Source of the DNA: Nitrososphaeraceae archaeon
GTDB taxonomy: Archaea > Thermoproteota > Nitrososphaeria > Nitrososphaerales > Nitrososphaeraceae
Direction: 5' to 3'
Length of the DNA: 8,701 nucleotides
NCBI GenBank assembly: GCA_021155845.1
Contig: JAJNBK010000048.1
Span: 1-8,701 of the forward strand
Shown here: in pieces, positions 1 to 8,701 of the stretch
How positions within the stretch are numbered: position 1 is the stretch's first letter
How the letters are laid out: each line of letters starts with the position of its first letter
Notes under the pieces: model-generated
Database searches by the model: none
What the model saw: only the letters and a program-made list of their open reading frames with translations
What the model was told of the DNA's origin: nothing
Program-made: the position numbers and the translations under genes

Positions 1-141
1 CTGTCTTTCTCTTTCTTCTGCTAACAGATTTCGAATTCCTGCCCGAACAATTTCTGATCGTCCTGAAAAACCAAGAACATTTTGTAATTTATCTATCTCC
101 GATAGGATCTCTTGATTGAGTGATATACTTACTATTGCCAA
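1..141 (-). CDS. Ribbon-helix-helix (NikR/CopG-like) transcriptional regulator, N-terminal part
   Basis: The first 47 codons of a gene that runs off the left edge of the window. Reading leftward from a TTG start at 141-139, the protein begins MAIVSISLNQEIL and continues with a helix, then GFSGRSEIVRAGIR and NLLAEERERQ. This is the classic ribbon-helix-helix fold: a beta strand (residues 2-8) that enters the DNA major groove, helix A (about 9-24), and helix B beginning at the G-x-S-x-R-S-E turn (about 25-43). Many archaeal proteins of this kind act as metal-responsive repressors like NikR, but the metal-binding C-terminal domain is outside the window, so metal sensing is inferred. An in-frame TAA lies a short way upstream and no ATG occurs between it and the TTG. 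A TATA-like box about 23 nt upstream fits a leaderless transcript. The gene is divergent from the znu remnants, so control of zinc or manganese uptake is its likely role. Confidence 0.82.
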   Translation of the reverse strand, partial: MAIVSISLNQEILSEIDKLQNVLGFSGRSEIVRAGIRNLLAEERERQ

Positions 142-356
142 TATATTATTAAGATATTTATATATAAATATACATTTATTATTATTAAATTACATTCTTA
201 AATATACAAACAATCTCAATTTGATGACAATAAATCAGCATAGTCGAAATTGTTTTGGTTATGCCAATTGCATTAATCAGAACCATCTATCTAAACAAAA
301 TCAATTCTAAATTAGTTATTATATTATTAGGTTAATATCTTGAATAAGTTATTAAA
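142..356. other. AT-rich divergent intergenic region with possible faint znuA traces
   Basis: Apart from the TATA palindrome, no intact gene is visible. In one + frame, from about 253, an F-W-L string followed by scattered residues and an L-Y-Y ... N-x-x-x-N-K-L-L-K stretch (about 316-357) weakly resembles the middle of ZnuA-type proteins (the H-x-W-L-D-P region and the following helix). Several stop codons interrupt it. I treat this as a possible highly eroded 5' part of the znuA pseudogene. Confidence 0.35.
154..171 (-). promoter_or_regulatory. TATA box in an 18-bp perfect palindrome, possible autoregulatory operator
   Basis: The sequence ATATTTATATATAAATAT equals its own reverse complement. 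Its centre lies about 22 nt upstream of the TTG start of the RHH regulator, where an archaeal TATA box would sit for a leaderless transcript. RHH dimers bind short inverted repeats, so this site could be both promoter and operator. However, palindromes arise easily from pure A/T sequence, so the operator reading is inference only. Confidence 0.45.
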
Positions 357-686
357 ATGAAATTTTCATATTGTGGGCAGTCAGACTTTATTGTATTCCA
401 TAATTTATTCAGCCAATCTATATAAAAAATAGTACATCAACACAATTTACTAGGATTTGGATTAGAAGATACATTAATAAAAAGATTGTAATTAATCAAA
501 ATGATAGATCAATTGAAAACCGATATTATTTATTATAATGAGTTAATCCATTCTGACTTGGCAAATTGTATTGAAGAGACTGCTAATAGTCAGGTACTTA
601 TTTTAAATTCTATAAAGAGAGCACATCAGGAAGAAAAAAAAGGTATTGGTTATATAAAAAGAATGGATCATAATGTGCTATCCTAA
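357..686 (+). pseudogene. znuA: Remnant of a ZnuA/TroA-family Zn/Mn-binding protein (C-terminal half)
   Basis: One frame can be read through the whole segment with internal stops at 423-425 and 489-491. The order of motifs is that of the C-terminal lobe of cluster A-I metal-binding proteins. First comes C-x-x-x-DFIVFHN (384-404), which carries the conserved metal-ligand His. Next is HQHNLLGFGLED (435-470), corresponding to the usual 'GLSPE' region. Then come LIKMIDQLKTDIIYYNEL and IEETANSQVLILNSI, which are the Rossmann-like helix and strand with the E-L and V-L-x-L-x-P-I positions. The last part, EEKKGIGYIKRM, is the usual terminal helix. The piece after the second stop is open from ATG 501 (61 codons) and ends 13 nt before the znuC start. 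Signal peptide and N-terminal lobe are not recognisable. This metal receptor would have fed the ZnuC transporter but cannot work as read. Family identity is pattern recognition, not a database match. Confidence 0.7.
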
Positions 687-687
687 A

Positions 688-697
688 GGTGGAGAGG
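688..697 (+). promoter_or_regulatory. Shine-Dalgarno-like site that favours the TTG start of znuC
   Basis: GGTGGAGAGG lies 2-12 nt before the TTG at 700. Its GGTG and GGAG elements match the archaeal anti-SD sequence, with spacings of about 8 and 5 nt. No such motif precedes the in-frame ATG at 673, which would overlap the upstream reading frame by 14 nt. The site therefore supports the TTG as start. Confidence 0.5.
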
Positions 698-699
698 GA

Positions 700-1431
700 T
701 TGCAAGTAGTAAATATTGACAATGTCTCTTATGGATTTAATTCGGCTCTTGTTCTTGAAAACATTTCATTTACAGTAGACAAAGGCGATTTTGTAGGAAT
801 AATTGGTCCTAATGGTGCCGGCAAAACTACTCTATTTCGTTCAATGCTTGGATTACTGGAAGACTATCAAGGCAGAATTACATTCTTTGGTGAGGATATT
901 CGTAAAAATAGAAATATACTTCAAAAGATAGGTTATATCCCACAGAAAAATTCAATAGATCAAGGCTTCCCTGCAACAGTTGAAGAAATTGTTTCATTAG
1001 GAATTACTAGTAGAAGACCATCCAAAAACAAAATAAATTATGCTATCGAAACGGTAGGATTATTTGATCAGAAAACCAAAAGAATTGGCGAATTATCCGG
1101 TGGACAGCAACAACGGGTTCTCATTGCAAAAGCTCTAGCAAATGAACCAGAATTGTTAATACTTGACGAACCAGTTACAGGAATTGATCTGGAAACACAG
1201 AACAAATTTTATATTTTGCTAAAGAAATTAAATGAAGAGAATAAGATCACGATAATATGGGCCTCTCATGATCTAGACGCAGTAAAAAAACTTGCAAATA
1301 AGATTGCATGTGTTAACAGACGCATATTCTTCCATGGCGATGCTACTATCTTTTTTGAAAACAATGAATTACTAAAAAAATATTCTGAATCAACAATGCA
1401 AGCACACATGCAATTGCACGATCATAGTTAA
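700..1431 (+). CDS. znuC: Zn/Mn-type metal ABC transporter, ATP-binding protein (ZnuC-like)
   Basis: ATPase subunit of a cluster A-I metal importer; it would power the permease ZnuB on the cytoplasmic face of the membrane. From the TTG start the protein has 243 residues, the usual size. All ABC motifs are present: Walker A GPNGAGKT (36-43), Q-loop Gln 82 in IGYIPQK, signature LSGGQQQR (132-139), Walker B LLILDEP (152-158) with catalytic Glu 157, and H-loop His 190 in WASHD. The string after the Q-loop (SIDQGFPATVEEIV) is typical of the ZnuC/MntB/TroB branch. The C-terminus ends HMQLHDHS, a small His cluster as often seen in zinc transport proteins. An ATG at 673 (252 residues) is the alternative start, but the RBS and family N-terminus favour TTG 700. 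Its partners look broken: the upstream znuA is a remnant and no intact permease follows. The ATPase is thus an apparent orphan, perhaps used with another permease. Whether the metal is zinc or manganese cannot be decided. Confidence 0.9.
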   Translation: MQVVNIDNVSYGFNSALVLENISFTVDKGDFVGIIGPNGAGKTTLFRSMLGLLEDYQGRITFFGEDIRKNRNILQKIGYIPQKNSIDQGFPATVEEIVSLGITSRRPSKNKINYAIETVGLFDQKTKRIGELSGGQQQRVLIAKALANEPELLILDEPVTGIDLETQNKFYILLKKLNEENKITIIWASHDLDAVKKLANKIACVNRRIFFHGDATIFFENNELLKKYSESTMQAHMQLHDHS

Positions 1432-1977: not shown

Positions 1978-2997
1978 TTATTGTTTTCTCCTTGGAATAA
2001 TTGATAGATAACGAGTATGCATGTGAATTACATATATTCCGAGAAATCCTAAAACACCTCCCAGAATAGCAAGAAATATATTTTCAGGTAAATTACTCGT
2101 GATTCCTAATTCTTTCAGTATTATTTGTATTAAGACAGTAATAAGAATACTGGAAGACCCTATCGTTGCTGTAATAGATGCTCCTATTTTGCTTAAGCCA
2201 GTAGTATAACATAGTGATCCAATAAAAGGAAGAAATGAAAAGAGGAGTAATATTATAATAGTAATTATCAATGGCTGTTGCTGAAATGAAGACCCCCAGG
2301 CTGATGATGATAATATTTCTTGAGATTCATACAAAAACCCAATCATAAAAGCAACCAAAATTAATCCAGAGACTAGCATGGAGGCTCCTGCCACTTCTAT
2401 AGATGAATGTATTGAAACAAGTTTGGTTAAAAAGAGAACGCCAATTGCAAATCCAAGGGCTGAAAAAATTGCTTCTATATCACCAAAGGTAATTAATGTT
2501 GACGGCGATGTTATTACTGTCCCTATACCATGGTCATCAAGAACATCTCCTGCATCACTTGCTACCGCCATTAAGAATCCAATTAATGCCAGAACAATAC
2601 CAATAACTCGAATTCTATCTAAATTCTCATTCAAGAAAATTCGTGCTAAAACAACTATAATAACAATTTCAAGAGGACCAGCAATAAGGGCTTCTTTTGA
2701 GGCGCCAATTCGGCTAATAGAATCATACCATGTAAATATCCCAATTGCTAGCAAGAAACAAGCCAAAATGAGATTTTTCCATGATTTTGAGAATAGCGTA
2801 GATATTCCTTTCTTTTTCATAAAAAAAGCCGCAATAAGTGACAGCATAATGCCTGCCAAGGTTATGCTTATGGCTGAAAGCATGATGGGAGGAATTTGCA
2901 GGGAAGTGGTAGTTAAAAATTCAATGAGAATTGATTCTACAGATAGAGTTATTGCATAAATAAAAACGACCCACGATTTGTGTATTAACAATGGCAA
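1978..2997 (-). CDS. EamA/DMT-superfamily membrane transporter
   Basis: A 339-residue integral membrane protein with ten predicted helices, at roughly 9-29, 37-60, 75-93, 103-122, 130-147, 168-193, 201-222, 242-267, 272-294 and 306-325. It is the duplicated 5+5 layout of the drug/metabolite transporter superfamily. The first EamA repeat is well visible: G-A-S-K-E-A-L near 98-104, then the L-x-E (FLNENL) and VIGIVLALIGFLMA pattern. The second repeat has SKIGASITATIGSSS followed by KELGI and a glycine-rich last helix. A soluble Asp/Gly-rich loop (148-166) separates the halves. The substrate cannot be told from sequence; relatives export amino acids, nucleotides or drugs. The start is TTG at 2997-2995, with another TTG two codons later. 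The next Met is at residue 39, inside helix 2, so the TTG region is preferred. It is transcribed alone, convergent with the znu genes, and shows no damage. Confidence 0.88.
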   Translation of the reverse strand: MPLLIHKSWVVFIYAITLSVESILIEFLTTTSLQIPPIMLSAISITLAGIMLSLIAAFFMKKKGISTLFSKSWKNLILACFLLAIGIFTWYDSISRIGASKEALIAGPLEIVIIVVLARIFLNENLDRIRVIGIVLALIGFLMAVASDAGDVLDDHGIGTVITSPSTLITFGDIEAIFSALGFAIGVLFLTKLVSIHSSIEVAGASMLVSGLILVAFMIGFLYESQEILSSSAWGSSFQQQPLIITIIILLLFSFLPFIGSLCYTTGLSKIGASITATIGSSSILITVLIQIILKELGITSNLPENIFLAILGGVLGFLGIYVIHMHTRYLSIIPRRKQ

Positions 2998-3021: not shown

Positions 3022-3034
3022 CTACATATAATAT
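3022..3034 (-). promoter_or_regulatory. Possible TATA box of the EamA-family transporter gene
   Basis: On the minus strand an A/T-only stretch reading ATATTATATG is centred about 31 nt before the TTG start. That would place transcription start a few bases before the start codon, as is common for nearly leaderless archaeal mRNAs. The surrounding DNA is also AT-rich, so the match is not strong. Confidence 0.3.
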
Positions 3035-3588
3035 GAAGATTCAATCTTGGAGCAGAGCAGGGCCTATCTGCACCAATGATAAAATGCCTAATTTTTCAAT
3101 GATATGCCTATATTTAATAACAAGATAAGTCATCTTACACAGAAAGAATATAACTTTTAATAAGATATAATTTAGTATTCTACTTATCAACTTAAAAATC
3201 AAATACACAAGTTATTGTTCTCTAAACCTTCTTTTGCAGACAAAGATAATAGTAATTAGAAGGCAGAGTAAGATGATATAATATACAAAATATATATAAT
3301 TAGAATAATAATAATTAATCTGAATATATCTTTCCAGAATATGATTTAATCAAGCAAAGGAACAATATCTACTAGCAAGCTAAGAGTATTAGAAATGATG
3401 ATAATGAGGACTACAATTAGTATGAATGAAGAGCATATACACCATAGAGAGCTAGTTTCATCACTACTTGTGGCAAATATTACAAAATTCTCACACAGTA
3501 GTAAGTATCCTAACCTACTCTCTAAAACAACATGCTTCCAACTAATCTAGTCCTACAATTATATAAGTAATTAAGCATCTTCTTTAAA

Positions 3589-3637
3589 GTGGTCTTCTTT
3601 ATTCATTTCTTTATTTCTTTCTTTCTTCTCTAAGTTA
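3589..3637 (+). repeat. Pyrimidine-rich CTTT/TTC low-complexity tract
   Basis: Nearly every base is T or C, built from repeated CTTT, TTTC and TTCTT units (for example CTTTATTTCTTTCTTTCTT). Such homopurine-homopyrimidine tracts can form triplexes or slip during replication. Its function is unknown. Confidence 0.55.
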
Positions 3638-3697
3638 CGTCATTCCAGATCTAATAGACTACAATAGATTGATTCAGCTCATATCAAAAGAAATTGT

Positions 3698-3720
3698 TAA
3701 AAAAAAGAAAGTAGAAAAAC
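3698..3720 (-). terminator. Possible oligo-T terminator of the uvr transcript
   Basis: On the minus strand the sequence reads as two T-rich runs (TTTTTCTACTTTCTTTTTTT) about 90 nt after the uvrC stop codon. Archaeal RNA polymerase commonly stops at such T-runs without a hairpin. It is the only such site near the end of the cluster. Confidence 0.35.
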
Positions 3721-3730
3721 TGTTGTTATT

Positions 3731-3756
3731 GTTTTCTCTCTCTTTCTCTTTCTCTA
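3731..3756 (+). repeat. CT/CTTT microsatellite tract
   Basis: A second pyrimidine tract (TTTTCTCTCTCTTTCTCTTT and on) lies between the presumed terminator and the uvrC stop. It has the same composition as the tract at 3589-3637, so both may come from one slippage-prone background. Confidence 0.5.
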
Positions 3757-3790
3757 TGCGGTCATAATGGTATATGGTTATTCTTCTGAC

Positions 3791-3808
3791 TCTCTATCTA
3801 TCTATCTA
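3791..3808 (+). repeat. TCTA tetranucleotide repeat overlapping the uvrC stop codon
   Basis: TCTC followed by TCTATCTATCTATCTA; its last unit supplies the TAG stop of the uvrC frame on the minus strand. The repeat sits where a longer UvrC would continue toward a helix-hairpin-helix domain, so repeat expansion may have helped to set the present C-terminus. Confidence 0.6.
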
Positions 3809-5104
3809 ATTACTAGAACTCAATTTTCTCAGGTTAACATTATATGCTAAGCCAAATCTGTGGGCTTCATTTCTAATGTGCTGAAGCATCTTAAGTGCAG
3901 GGCTATTCCTTGAAAGAATTATGGGCTCAGATGAATAAGGAGTATAGATTTCTTCATTTTCTTTTGCAAGGGATATACAGGGAATATCTATTCCTAATTT
4001 ATGAAGACCATTAATCGCAGAATGTAACTGTCCTTTTCCTCCGTCAATTACTATCAAGTCTGGCATTTGATATTTGCTATTAATCTTTTCGTCAGGATGT
4101 GAGTATCTACGCGTTACAATTTCTTCAATCATTGCAAAGTCGTTTTGGGTAAATAGCTTTGTCTTAATTCTGAATTTTCTATAACCGGCTTTATTTGGAT
4201 GACCATTAATGAACCTAGTACAGGATCCAACAGCAAATGTAGTTCCGAAATTTGATATATCAAAGCAATCTATTACATATGGCATAGTCGGTAATTGAAG
4301 AATTTTCTTTAGTTCTACTATAGAGGGATCATAGTTATTTCCAGCGTAAAGATTAATATTGCGTAGAACTAGTTCCATTAACTGCCTTTTTTCTTTCATC
4401 GGGAATTGAGAGGAAATCTGAATAATACTCACCTTACGCTCAGCGAGTTTTTCCAATAACTCTTCTAAAGATTGCTTTGACTCGGGTTCTTCGTTCACAT
4501 ATATATATCTCGGAATTACTGGGACTGTTGAATAATACTGTGATATGAAGGTAGAAAGGGAATTGTCTCCAACCAATTCAAATTCAAATCGTTTCCGATC
4601 ACTGATAACGCCGCGAGTTCTCCGTAAAGTCATTATATTTGCAATACCTTTTTCCTCCTCCTTCACTATTCCAATATATTCTTCGTCAGAATTGCCATTT
4701 ACGGCTTTTTCCATTTTCTGTTTTACACGTAAATTGTTCAATCTATGCAGTGTATCACGAATTTCCATTGCCTTTTCATACTGTTGAAGCTCTGATGCTT
4801 GCTTCATCTTATATTCCATTTCGTTTATAAAATTATCAATACTGCTTTTTCCTTCTAATATTCTCTGTAAGGCAATAACATTTCTTATATATTCTGTTCT
4901 AGCCATATCATTAATACAAGGTGCATCACAATTCTTAATGAAATATTCTAAACATGGTTTCTTCGGCAGTTTGTCACAGATTCTAATCTTGAATAACTTT
5001 CTTAAAAGCCCCACAGTAAGAAACTTTGAACTACCTCTTACGAAAGGACCATATATTTTGCCCTTTGGTCCATGAAATTCTCCATTTCTATTACGTCTTG
5101 CCAC
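3806..5104 (-). CDS. uvrC: UvrC C-terminal fragment: Cys cluster, UVR domain and RNase H-like nuclease
   Basis: An open stretch of 432 residues from GTG 5104 (a Val codon in intact UvrC, so perhaps not a true start). Domains in order: the end of the GIY-YIG region; four Cys at 43, 51, 59 and 63, in the place where E. coli UvrC holds an iron-sulfur cluster; a UVR motif (about 88-126) that binds UvrB; then the RNase H-like endonuclease that makes the 5' incision. Its active-site residues are visible as Asp 282 in CFDISN, Asp 354 in VIDGGKGQL and His 415 in NEAHRF. The protein ends 17 residues after that His, so the usual C-terminal (HhH)2 DNA-binding domain is absent. This may be normal for the lineage or another truncation. 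If translated, it could keep UvrB binding and 5' nuclease residues. Confidence 0.7.
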
Positions 5105-5274
5105 AAGCAGGCGGGGAAAAACTTCATCCGTGATTTTAGACGAGAGGTTTTCCAGTTGTTGTTATTAGTATTATTATTTTTTGAAAGTGAAAAATAAGAT
5201 TTAAGTCGCTTACGTATATTTTTCGCTTTTCCAATGTAAATTATTTTCCCTTCTTTATTTTTCATCAAATACAC
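5038..5274 (-). CDS. uvrC: UvrC N-terminal fragment: partial GIY-YIG nuclease domain with out-of-frame tail
   Basis: This is the only piece of the uvrC 5' half that can be opened from a standard codon (GTG at 5274-5272). It encodes 78 residues, but only the first 47 or so are UvrC-like: the V-Y of the GVY motif (residues 1-2), YIG at 13-15, then [14 protein letters not shown] with Arg 23 and Tyr 27, which match the catalytic Arg and Tyr of Thermotoga UvrC. After SLSKNNN comes an Asn-rich stretch (NNNTNNNN) where the family has a short loop, then NWKTSRL. From there the frame is wrong, and the residues to the stop at 5038 are antisense to nothing known. The catalytic Glu is lacking, so this fragment alone should not make the 3' incision. 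Confidence 0.6.
5156..5176 (+). repeat. TTG/TTA trinucleotide repeat in uvrC (Asn-rich run)
   Basis: Seven near-perfect TTG/TTA/GTA triplets. On the coding strand they are AAT/AAC codons giving NNNTNNNN in a loop of the GIY-YIG domain. The run lies about 20 nt from the deletion junction. Confidence 0.7.
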
Positions 5275-5332
5275 ACCAGGATCCTGAGGGATTTGCTTTC
5301 CTATGATAGAAGAGATGTCTAGTGTAGGAGGC

Positions 5333-5344
5333 GATGATGATGAT
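5333..5344 (+). repeat. (GAT)4 repeat at the uvrA-uvrC junction
   Basis: Four GAT units lie between the uvrA stop and the first recognisable uvrC residues. In the uvrC frame the repeat reads as Ser codons. The uvrC start codon would be expected in this short gap, and none is there. Confidence 0.65.
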
Positions 5345-5348
5345 GTGA

Positions 5349-8216
5349 TTATGATGCACCCCTCTGAATGATTTGATCAATTGCTAACTTGGATTTTAGA
5401 TATTTTCCAGTATGGCTTTCTTTATTTTCTGCAACTTCATGAGGTGGTCCCGTAGCAACTATCTTGCCACCACCTTCTCCGCCTTCCGGGCCAAGGTCTA
5501 TAATCCAATCAGCGTCAATAACTATTATAGTATTGCCAAGATCTTCTAGTCTTTTTAAAACATGCAACAATTTGCTAACATCTGCAAAATGAAGCCCTGT
5601 TGTTGGCTCATCTAGAATGTATACTGTTTTACCGGTATCTCTTTTCGAGAGCTCTGCAGCAAGTTTAATTCTCTGTGCTTCACCGCCAGACAATGTAGTA
5701 GCAGGTTGGCCGAGTCGTATGTATCCAAGTCCTACATCCTTCAGAGTTCGGAGCTTTCTTTCAATAATTGAGATATTTTCAAAGAATTCTGATGCTTCGT
5801 CAACTGTCATATTTAGTATGTCTGAAATTGTCTTTTCCTTGTACTTTACAGAGAGCGTTTCAGAATTATACCGTTTTCCTTTGCATTCATCACATGTAAC
5901 ATATACATCAGGTAAAAATTGCATTTCGATTTTTCTGACGCCACCACCTTGACATGCTTCGCATCTTCCATGTGAAACATTAAATGAAAATCTTCCAGAT
6001 TTATATCCCATTTCTTTTGCTTGCGAAGTCTTTGCAAATAGTTCTCTAATTGGCGTAAAAGCGTTAACATAAGTAGCAGCATTTGATCTTGGAGTACGAC
6101 CAATTGGTGATTGATCGATTCCTATGACTTTATCTACATATTCCAAGCCCGATAAATTTCTGTGTTTACCAGGCTTTTCTTTACTGTTGTAAATATGAGC
6201 CGCGAGCGCTTTAAATAATATATCATTTACTAATGTTGATTTGCCAGAGCCAGAAACTCCTGTCACGACTGTCATGCAACCAATAGGAAATTGTACATCA
6301 ATTGATTTCAGATTATTTTCCTGCGCTCCATAAATAGTTAGCCACCGTTCTGGTATTTTCCTCTCTTGCTTAGGATAGGATACAAGTAGGTCACCTCTCA
6401 GGAAAGCTCCTGTAACAGAATTCTTATTATCTAAAATGTTTTCTAATAGACCATAAGCAGTAATTTCTCCGCCGCGCATGCCAGCACCAGGCCCAATATC
6501 AATGATCCAGTCAGCATTACGGATTACTTCTTCATCGTGTTCAACTACAAGCAGCGTATTGTCAAGATCACGTAATTTTTTTAAAGTATCAATCAATTTA
6601 GCATTGTCTCTCTGATGCAGACCTATAGTAGGTTCATCAAGGACATATAAAACTCCAGTTAAGTTCGAACCGACCTGGGTTGCTAATCTGATTCTCTGTG
6701 ATTCTCCACCAGAAAGTGTGGCCGTAACCCTATTCAATGACAAATAGTTTAATCCAACATTATTCAAGAATTCAAGCCTTGAAATAATCTCTTTTAGTAT
6801 TGTTCTTGCAATATATCTTTCAGTTTCTGAAAGTTGTATGGTTCTAAAAAATCGATAACAATTATCAATGGAAAGATCGCATATGTCCATTATCGACTTT
6901 TCCTGTATCTTGACTGAAAGTGCTTCTCTACGCAATCTCCTACCTAGACAACTATCACAGGTACGCTCGCGCATAAACTGCATGATCTCGTCACGCTTTG
7001 ATTCTGATTCAGTTTGCTTATATGCGCGCTCCAAGTTTGGAATTACGCCTTCAAAGGATCCTCTATATTCCCATCTGCTAGATGAATATTTTCCTTCATA
7101 TTTATAATGAATCTTATCATCTGTTCCATATAAAATGACTCTGATCTGCTCTTCTGTCATCTTTGAGATAGGCGTATAAAGATTAAATCCAAAATGTTTG
7201 CCTACGTCTCTGAGCATTTCAGAGCGGAATGTAGCGAAGTAGCCAGACCAAGGTTTCACAGCTCCCTCCAATATGCTTTTTGACTTGTCTGGAATAATTA
7301 GTTCAGGGTCGAATTCGATTTTTATCCCAAGCCCGTTGCAGTCTCTGCATGCACCGAAAGGAGAATTAAATGAAAATGAGCGTGGTTCTAAATCTCCTAG
7401 ACTGATACCGCAATACGGGCATGCGTTGCGTTGGGAGTATAATGTATCTTCACCGTCTATCGAGGCAATCACAATACCATTTCCTATCTTAAGGGCGGAT
7501 TGGACGGATTCAAATAATCTGCTTTTTTCCTCAGTCATGACCTTTAATCTGTCAACGATGACTTCAATAGTATGTTTTTTTTGTCTGTCTAGTCTAGGAT
7601 ATTTTGATTTTTGTTCTTGTTCTTGTTCTTCATCATCTTCGAGATTGGTTATCGCACCATCTAATCGAATCCTGGAAAAGCCCTCTTGTTTTAATTCATT
7701 AAATAATTTTTCGTACGTACCTTTCTTTGCTGAAATGATTGGGGCAAGAATCATAATTGAGCCATTCTTCTTCTTTTGAGCTGATTTCCATATCGATTCT
7801 GTAATAGAATCTGAAGATTGACTTGTAATTGTTCTATTGCATTCAGGACAATTAGGTATTCCTATTCTGGCATATAGTAATCGTAGATAATCATAGATCT
7901 CTGTTACGGTTCCGACCGTAGAACGTGGATTCTTGCTGGTAGTCTTCTGTTGTATTGATATTGCTGGAGATAAACCATCTATAGAATCAACATCTGGTTT
8001 GTCCATTAACTCCAAAAATTGTCTTGCATATGCTGATAATGACTCTACATAGCGCCTTTGTCCTTCTGCGTAAATAGTATCAAATGCAAGTGTAGATTTT
8101 CCTGAGCCTGATAACCCTGTAATTACAATGAGTTTGTTTTTTGGAATTTCTAGATTGATATTTTTTAGGTTGTGCTGTCTTGCACCTTTTATAACTATTT
8201 TATCATGCATATTCAT
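5349..8216 (-). CDS. uvrA: Excinuclease ABC subunit A, with the second H-loop deleted
   Basis: UvrA is the damage-sensing ATPase of nucleotide excision repair; as a dimer it loads UvrB on lesions. The 955-residue frame is full length. Visible parts: Walker [10 protein letters not shown] (34-41); the UvrB-binding region; zinc module 1 with Cys 266, 269, 290 and 293; signature [10 protein letters not shown] (about 500) with Walker B YVLDEP and H-loop VEHD; Walker [11 protein letters not shown] (about 654); zinc module 2 CEAC...CDEC (about 754-780); signature [11 protein letters not shown] (about 840) with YILDEP. The normal VIEHNLDVIK-x-ADW that follows is shortened to VIDADW (about 897-903), losing the switch His of ATPase II. 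An extra acidic [10 protein letters not shown] loop (193-202) comes from a hexanucleotide repeat. ATG 8216 overlaps the uvrB stop (ATGA), so the two are translationally coupled. The protein should fold, but ATP hydrolysis at site II is probably impaired. Confidence 0.95.
7611..7630 (+). repeat. TTGTTC hexanucleotide repeat in uvrA
   Basis: Three units of TTGTTC plus TT. On the coding strand they are GAA-CAA pairs giving EQEQEQ in a variable loop between the first zinc module and the UvrB-binding domain. The repeat keeps frame and is probably harmless. Confidence 0.75.
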
Positions 8217-8701
8217 AAAACCTCTACATGTGTTCGTTCTTCTAACAAATTCTTTATCTTTGTCAGTTTTTCCCTAAATTCAATAGCTTTTTCAAAATCT
8301 AATTCCTCAGCAAATTTTTTCATGGTTGCTTCTGTCTCTATTGCAAGTTTTAGCAGGTCTGATCGAGCGATAGATTTTGTAAGTGTCTGATTTTGTTGTT
8401 GCCTTATCTGGAATGGCTTTAACAACTGATCTGGGTGTTATCTTGTACTTTTCGTTATACTGGATCTGTTTCTTACGCCTTCTCTCTGTTTCTGCTAGCG
8501 CACTTTTTATTGAATCAGTAATATTATCTGCATACATGATAACCATACCATCGACATTTCTTGCAGCTCGACCAAAAGTCTGTATTAGACTTGTATTGTT
8601 GCGTAGGAATCCTTCTTTATCAGCGTCCAATATAGCAACAAGAGACACTTCCGGAATATCTAGCCCTTCTCTAAGCAGGTTAATACCTACCAAAACATCA
8701 A
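8213..8701 (-). pseudogene. uvrB: uvrB, excinuclease ABC subunit B, C-terminal part, frameshifted
   Basis: UvrB is the helicase-like subunit that verifies damage and recruits UvrC. The gene continues beyond the right edge. Frame one reads [18 protein letters not shown], then [10 protein letters not shown] and [12 protein letters not shown] (helicase motifs V and VI, with Phe where Ile is usual), then the [16 protein letters not shown] segment. After KSDTYK this frame becomes nonsense and stops at 8307. The natural continuation [20 protein letters not shown] and the UVR motif [17 protein letters not shown] lie in the next frame and end at TGA 8215-8213. Removing one base from the TTTT run at 8375-8378 joins the two smoothly. 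As read, UvrB would lose the tail that binds UvrA and UvrC. The stop overlaps the uvrA ATG. Confidence 0.9.

Follow-up and report, generated by a model that had tools for sequence, protein, structure and literature searches.

A conserved uvrBAC operon with three contig-private deletions in a Nitrososphaeraceae metagenome contig

The window, i.e. the whole stretch of DNA that was analysed, is an 8,701-nt metagenome contig from Nitrososphaeraceae whose minus strand holds the end of uvrB followed by uvrA and uvrC, an order that is the same in relatives when the clusters of the family genomes are compared. Its nearest matches among genome records are Nitrososphaera MAGs and a Nitrosocosmicus genome, and several near-identical UvrA and UvrC proteins carry the source label Nitrososphaeraceae archaeon. 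We read it as a normal, conserved uvrBAC operon of a soil species, with three deletions that are private to this contig and do not characterise the species, and we give this reading, with a library or assembly artefact slightly favoured as the origin of the deletions, about an even chance. The initial annotation had proposed a separate lesion in each of the three genes, and one deletion per gene was indeed found.

The C-terminal part of uvrB lies at 8213..8701 on the minus strand and is truncated by the window end. Its helicase part (8307-8699, minus strand) and its UVR motif (within 8213-8437, minus strand) are in different frames, and PF12344 and PF02151 were accordingly matched in two separate frames of this UvrB (TIGR00631), leaving the UVR motif and the helicase region without a common frame. 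Compared with the conspecific protein P0241, which is 99% identical, four residues and one base are absent near 8385/8386, i.e. ∼13 nt as judged from the protein comparison, so that the proposed frameshift ahead of the UVR tail is confirmed. Against more distant relatives, among which the length of the linker varies, the same gap aligns as 8 nt. In P0241, P0242 and P0243, the three closest UvrB fragments among the matches listed, the linker is whole at the position of the gap.

The uvrA gene (5349..8216, minus strand; 955 codons) is open throughout and has suffered an in-frame loss of 24 nt, with the junction inside 5505-5522. In the protein this is an 8-residue gap at residues 900/901, which removes the H-loop of ATPase II, as had been noticed from the sequence at the outset. 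The extra residues, with the EHNLD motif, were present in 120/120 UvrA homologues (the best 120 of 8000 scored, the sample on which the protein comparisons draw for each list), and the EHNLD and H-loop residues also align in the solved UvrA structure PDB 2r6f. The protein P0001, also among the best 120 of 8000, has the H-loop and differs from the window by 0.6% outside the gap. The window UvrA still passes the family cut-offs, with 1441.7 bits for NF001503 (cut-off 1147) and 1353.7 bits for TIGR00630 (cut-off 729.8).

The largest loss is in uvrC, where 46 residues and one base (∼139 nt) are absent near 5137/5138, which deletes the second half of the GIY-YIG domain and shifts the frame. Consequently, the N-terminal half of GIY-YIG (5038..5376, minus strand) and the rest of uvrC, comprising the UVR motif and the RNase H-like endonuclease domains (3806..5161, minus strand), are in different frames. 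For the endonuclease domains, PF08459 and PF22920 are above cut-off, and the UvrC frame of the window, which is also the entry P0121 (standing for two member sequences), scores 278.5 bits with TIGR00194, below the cut-off of 285.45, compared with 409.9 bits for the conspecific P0122. The GIY-YIG domain, solved in structures 1yd6 and 1ycz, was whole in 9/9 full-length conspecific UvrC proteins among the matches listed (P0122-P0130), and no internal deletion was seen in any of these nine. One of them, P0129, has a cluster of replacements within GIY-YIG, around residues 40-50, that is absent from the other eight and may be a local sequence error.

The loss of the GIY-YIG core, as initially annotated, therefore stands. 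The lack of a start codon, which had been counted with it, does not stand as a private lesion: the GIY-YIG frame has no ATG, GTG or TTG ahead of the GTG at 5274, and two of the nine conspecific UvrC proteins, P0122 and P0127, begin at this same GTG position.

Without GIY-YIG there would be no 3′ cut, without its tail UvrB would make poor contact with UvrC, and without the H-loop ATPase II would be impaired. If the lesions are real, these domain roles predict a uvr cluster that has lost dual incision.

At the level of the contig the three gaps are real and are not chance readings, because the proteins around them are otherwise up to 98–99% identical to conspecific proteins. This bears out the remark in the initial annotation that the remainder of the proteins is well conserved and that the decay, if real, is recent; any decay must be very recent. 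Whether the organism itself has the gaps is another matter than their presence in the contig sequence. The UvrABC proteins of mesophilic ammonia-oxidising archaea (TIGR00630/NF001503, TIGR00631, TIGR00194) provide the natural comparison. The window shares their gene order and domain make-up and is 98–99% identical to the conspecific proteins, but it lacks a piece of the UvrB linker, the H-loop of UvrA ATPase II and half of the UvrC GIY-YIG domain. The cluster resembles a young pseudogene cluster, or a misassembled metagenome cluster, in that open frames are broken by deletions in conserved sequence.

None of the three gaps was found in any relative examined, namely the UvrA list, the UvrC and UvrB conspecifics and 20 family clusters. 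The case in which close relatives would carry the same shortened forms, which had been considered at the outset as an argument against decay, was thus not encountered, no sequence examined sharing the gaps. In the family clusters uvrB was full-length in 20/20, uvrA in 20/20 and uvrC in 18/20; one of the two short uvrC genes (L117) is cut by a contig end and the other (L114, genome G035) has an in-frame stop. The latter stop lies in the linker near 14506 of contig C48 of G035, ∼60 bases short of the end of the contig, and the frame goes on beyond the stop; it is a different lesion from that of the window, and may be real or a contig-edge error. Across 70 family genomes, some UvrA match was obtained in all and a match of E 2e-40 or better in 63. 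The other seven (G007, G031, G048, G049, G051, G055 and G061) gave no convincing uvrA, G055 having a 25-residue piece only, at 80% identity; their completeness is unstated, and they may simply miss sequence and are not evidence of loss. On the evidence of the conspecific sequences, the species retains the UvrABC pathway.

Relaxed selection would be expected to raise amino-acid replacement in the affected genes. The nearest relative whose DNA was compared has a UvrA 82% identical, and the first four relatives have a DNA identity of ∼66–69%, so that silent sites should be near saturation; we therefore used private amino-acid changes and distances to outgroups. Private changes of the window number 2 for UvrA and 3 for UvrC, compared with 0–7 and 0–6 in intact conspecifics, the raw counts of 4 and 4 having been reduced by removal of the start residue in both proteins and of the junction residue 900 in UvrA. 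These counts were made against eight of the nine UvrA proteins of the closest class (P0049 omitted) and, for UvrC, against P0122-P0130 (fragments P0134 and P0202 omitted). Moreover, the distances to six UvrA outgroups differed by no more than two residues between the window and P0001, and the distances of the window to five UvrC outgroups fell inside the range of the nine conspecifics, reaching its upper end for two of the five. By both measures, raised amino-acid replacement was not found in uvrA or uvrC. Two other genes of the contig served as controls, an EamA-family transporter (1978..2997, minus strand) and an ABC transporter ATPase of the zinc/manganese type (673..1431, plus strand); neither had a lesion, frameshifts and gaps longer than 5 residues being absent when each was aligned with four relatives, but with ∼1.8 kb of coding sequence only this control hardly discriminates.

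The initial annotation had explained three lesions in one pathway by relaxed selection on the whole UvrABC system, and as a lineage-wide process this could also call on the in-frame uvrC stop of G035. The explanation fares badly against the above results, since the gaps are private, no relative examined shares a lesion, replacement is not raised and the genes of the family clusters are full-length with the two uvrC exceptions described; we regard it as very improbable.

A narrower form of loss is suggested by two conspecific UvrA proteins close to the window. P0017 and P0049 do not differ at any aligned residue, yet each lacks a block of its own, of 22 residues in P0017 and 56 in P0049. Internal deletions are thus present in two of the nine listed UvrA proteins that form the class up to 4.5% distant from the window (three of ten if the window itself is counted), compared with 0/41 in the next class at 4.5–11%, where one protein has a shorter and one a longer C-terminus; both classes come from the best 120 of 8000 and were set after the data were seen. 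With the window DNA as a stand-in, microhomology at the gap of P0017 is 4 bases and at that of P0049 0–2 bases, depending on the exact breakpoint. Loss may then be recurrent within the species, with UvrABC inactivated in separate clones through short deletions that differ from clone to clone and show little microhomology, and with null alleles standing beside intact ones; the uvrC stop of G035, in the same family, would be in keeping with this. On the other hand, the classes were drawn with the data in view, protein clustering and the best-120-of-8000 list bias the count, P0017 and P0049 share one backbone and maybe one project, all of the gaps may be errors, and the nine full-length conspecific UvrC proteins have no internal deletion. 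We take recurrent loss to be unlikely, and the contrast between the UvrA classes is a lead for it, nothing more.

The contig does contain decay of an ordinary kind. Of eight relatives compared at this locus, seven have adjoining genes for a ribbon-helix-helix regulator, a ZnuA-like binding protein, an ATPase and a permease, and the eighth (L108) gave an ATPase match only. In the window, 351-677 (plus strand) is a ZnuA-like remnant that covers residues 189–302 only, with an in-frame stop, 36% identity (E 9e-13) and the N-terminal part gone, and no permease match below E 1 was obtained in 1432-1977, where the longest frames are of 40 and 56 residues. This remnant is ordinary, older gene decay, unlike the clean uvr gaps, and the uvr genes of the window have no point decay of the kind seen in it. 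As to the rest of this operon, the ATPase at 673-1431 stands alone, without a following permease, L108 being seemingly alike. At 1-141 (minus strand), truncated by the window end, is the N-terminal part of a ribbon-helix-helix regulator (PF01402), 70–81% identical to that of the metal operon of relatives. Between the EamA gene and uvrC, ∼800 bases (3022-3805) hold no recognisable gene, and two small open frames there had no Pfam match over cut-off.

Two explanations of the uvr gaps thus remain to be weighed against each other. Under the reading that we slightly favour, the deletions would have arisen at the level of a single molecule, the library or the assembly, short stretches being skipped with both flanks kept, and the organism itself would keep a working UvrABC system, with a genome presumably free of the gaps. 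We lean to this origin because the near-identical UvrA P0001, UvrC P0122-P0130 and UvrB P0241-P0243 are whole at each of the three places. Furthermore, gradual decay is an odd fit to gaps of 13, 24 and 139 nt that are accompanied by only five private amino-acid changes, and the different blocks missing from P0017 and P0049, which are identical where aligned, suggest that gaps in these genes may arise outside the organism.

The difficulty with this reading is that no artefact mechanism fits well. Error-prone long reads are argued against by the clean flanks and by the two other contig genes, which are free of frameshifts and of gaps over 5 residues. Microhomology of the length found at the P0017 and P0049 gaps is too short for collapse at assembly k-mers. 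Besides, znuA has truly decayed on the same contig, so that gene loss does occur in the lineage, and G035 has another uvrC lesion.

Alternatively, the window may be a real and very young null allele, in which a first deletion cost one clone its excision repair and two more soon followed. Such a clone would be without the 3′ incision domain of UvrC, the UvrB tail that contacts this protein and, in UvrA, the ATPase II H-loop, and would have no dark repair. The clean flanks, the intact neighbouring genes, the real gene decay elsewhere on the contig and the scarcity of microhomology at the gaps of P0017 and P0049 are all consistent with it, and we consider it a serious possibility, somewhat short of an even chance. 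That three large deletions should come with so few point changes weighs against it, however, as does the finding that every conspecific protein among the matches listed was whole at the places of the gaps.

Whether such a clone could live bears on the same alternative. The uvr genes of Haloferax volcanii are described as non-essential, with mutants that are UV-sensitive without photoreactivating light (PMC7776575), and UvrABC is reported as absent from Ca. Nitrosocaldus cavascurensis, a thermophilic ammonia oxidiser (PMC5797428). By these two cases loss of UvrABC is survivable, and both favour the young null allele. The likeness to Ca. N. cavascurensis is that of an ammonia oxidiser without a working UvrABC system, if the window lesions are real, but there the organism is a thermophile and the genes are altogether absent, whereas in the window they are present and conserved, with lesions on one contig. 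The XPF-type nuclease domain ERCC4 was over the Pfam cut-off in 63/70 family genomes and the XPD-type helicase domain DEAD_2 was found in 38/70, which agrees with the initial expectation of XPF/XPD-type enzymes beside UvrABC and is likewise in favour of the young null allele. Among the open-licence papers listed by the literature searches, none deals with uvr decay in Nitrososphaeraceae.

Taken at face value, the finding would have meant that an abundant group of soil archaea had lost a DNA repair pathway. As it stands, the contig is unfit as evidence for loss of UvrABC, conspecific proteins showing that the pathway is kept in the species. Where a metagenome contig seems to show the decay of a pathway, comparison with near-identical proteins recovered from other samples offers an inexpensive filter. 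Should the deletions nevertheless prove true, they would mark a soil ammonia oxidiser clone that has recently become repair-null, or a population in which loss recurs, and either would be worth following.
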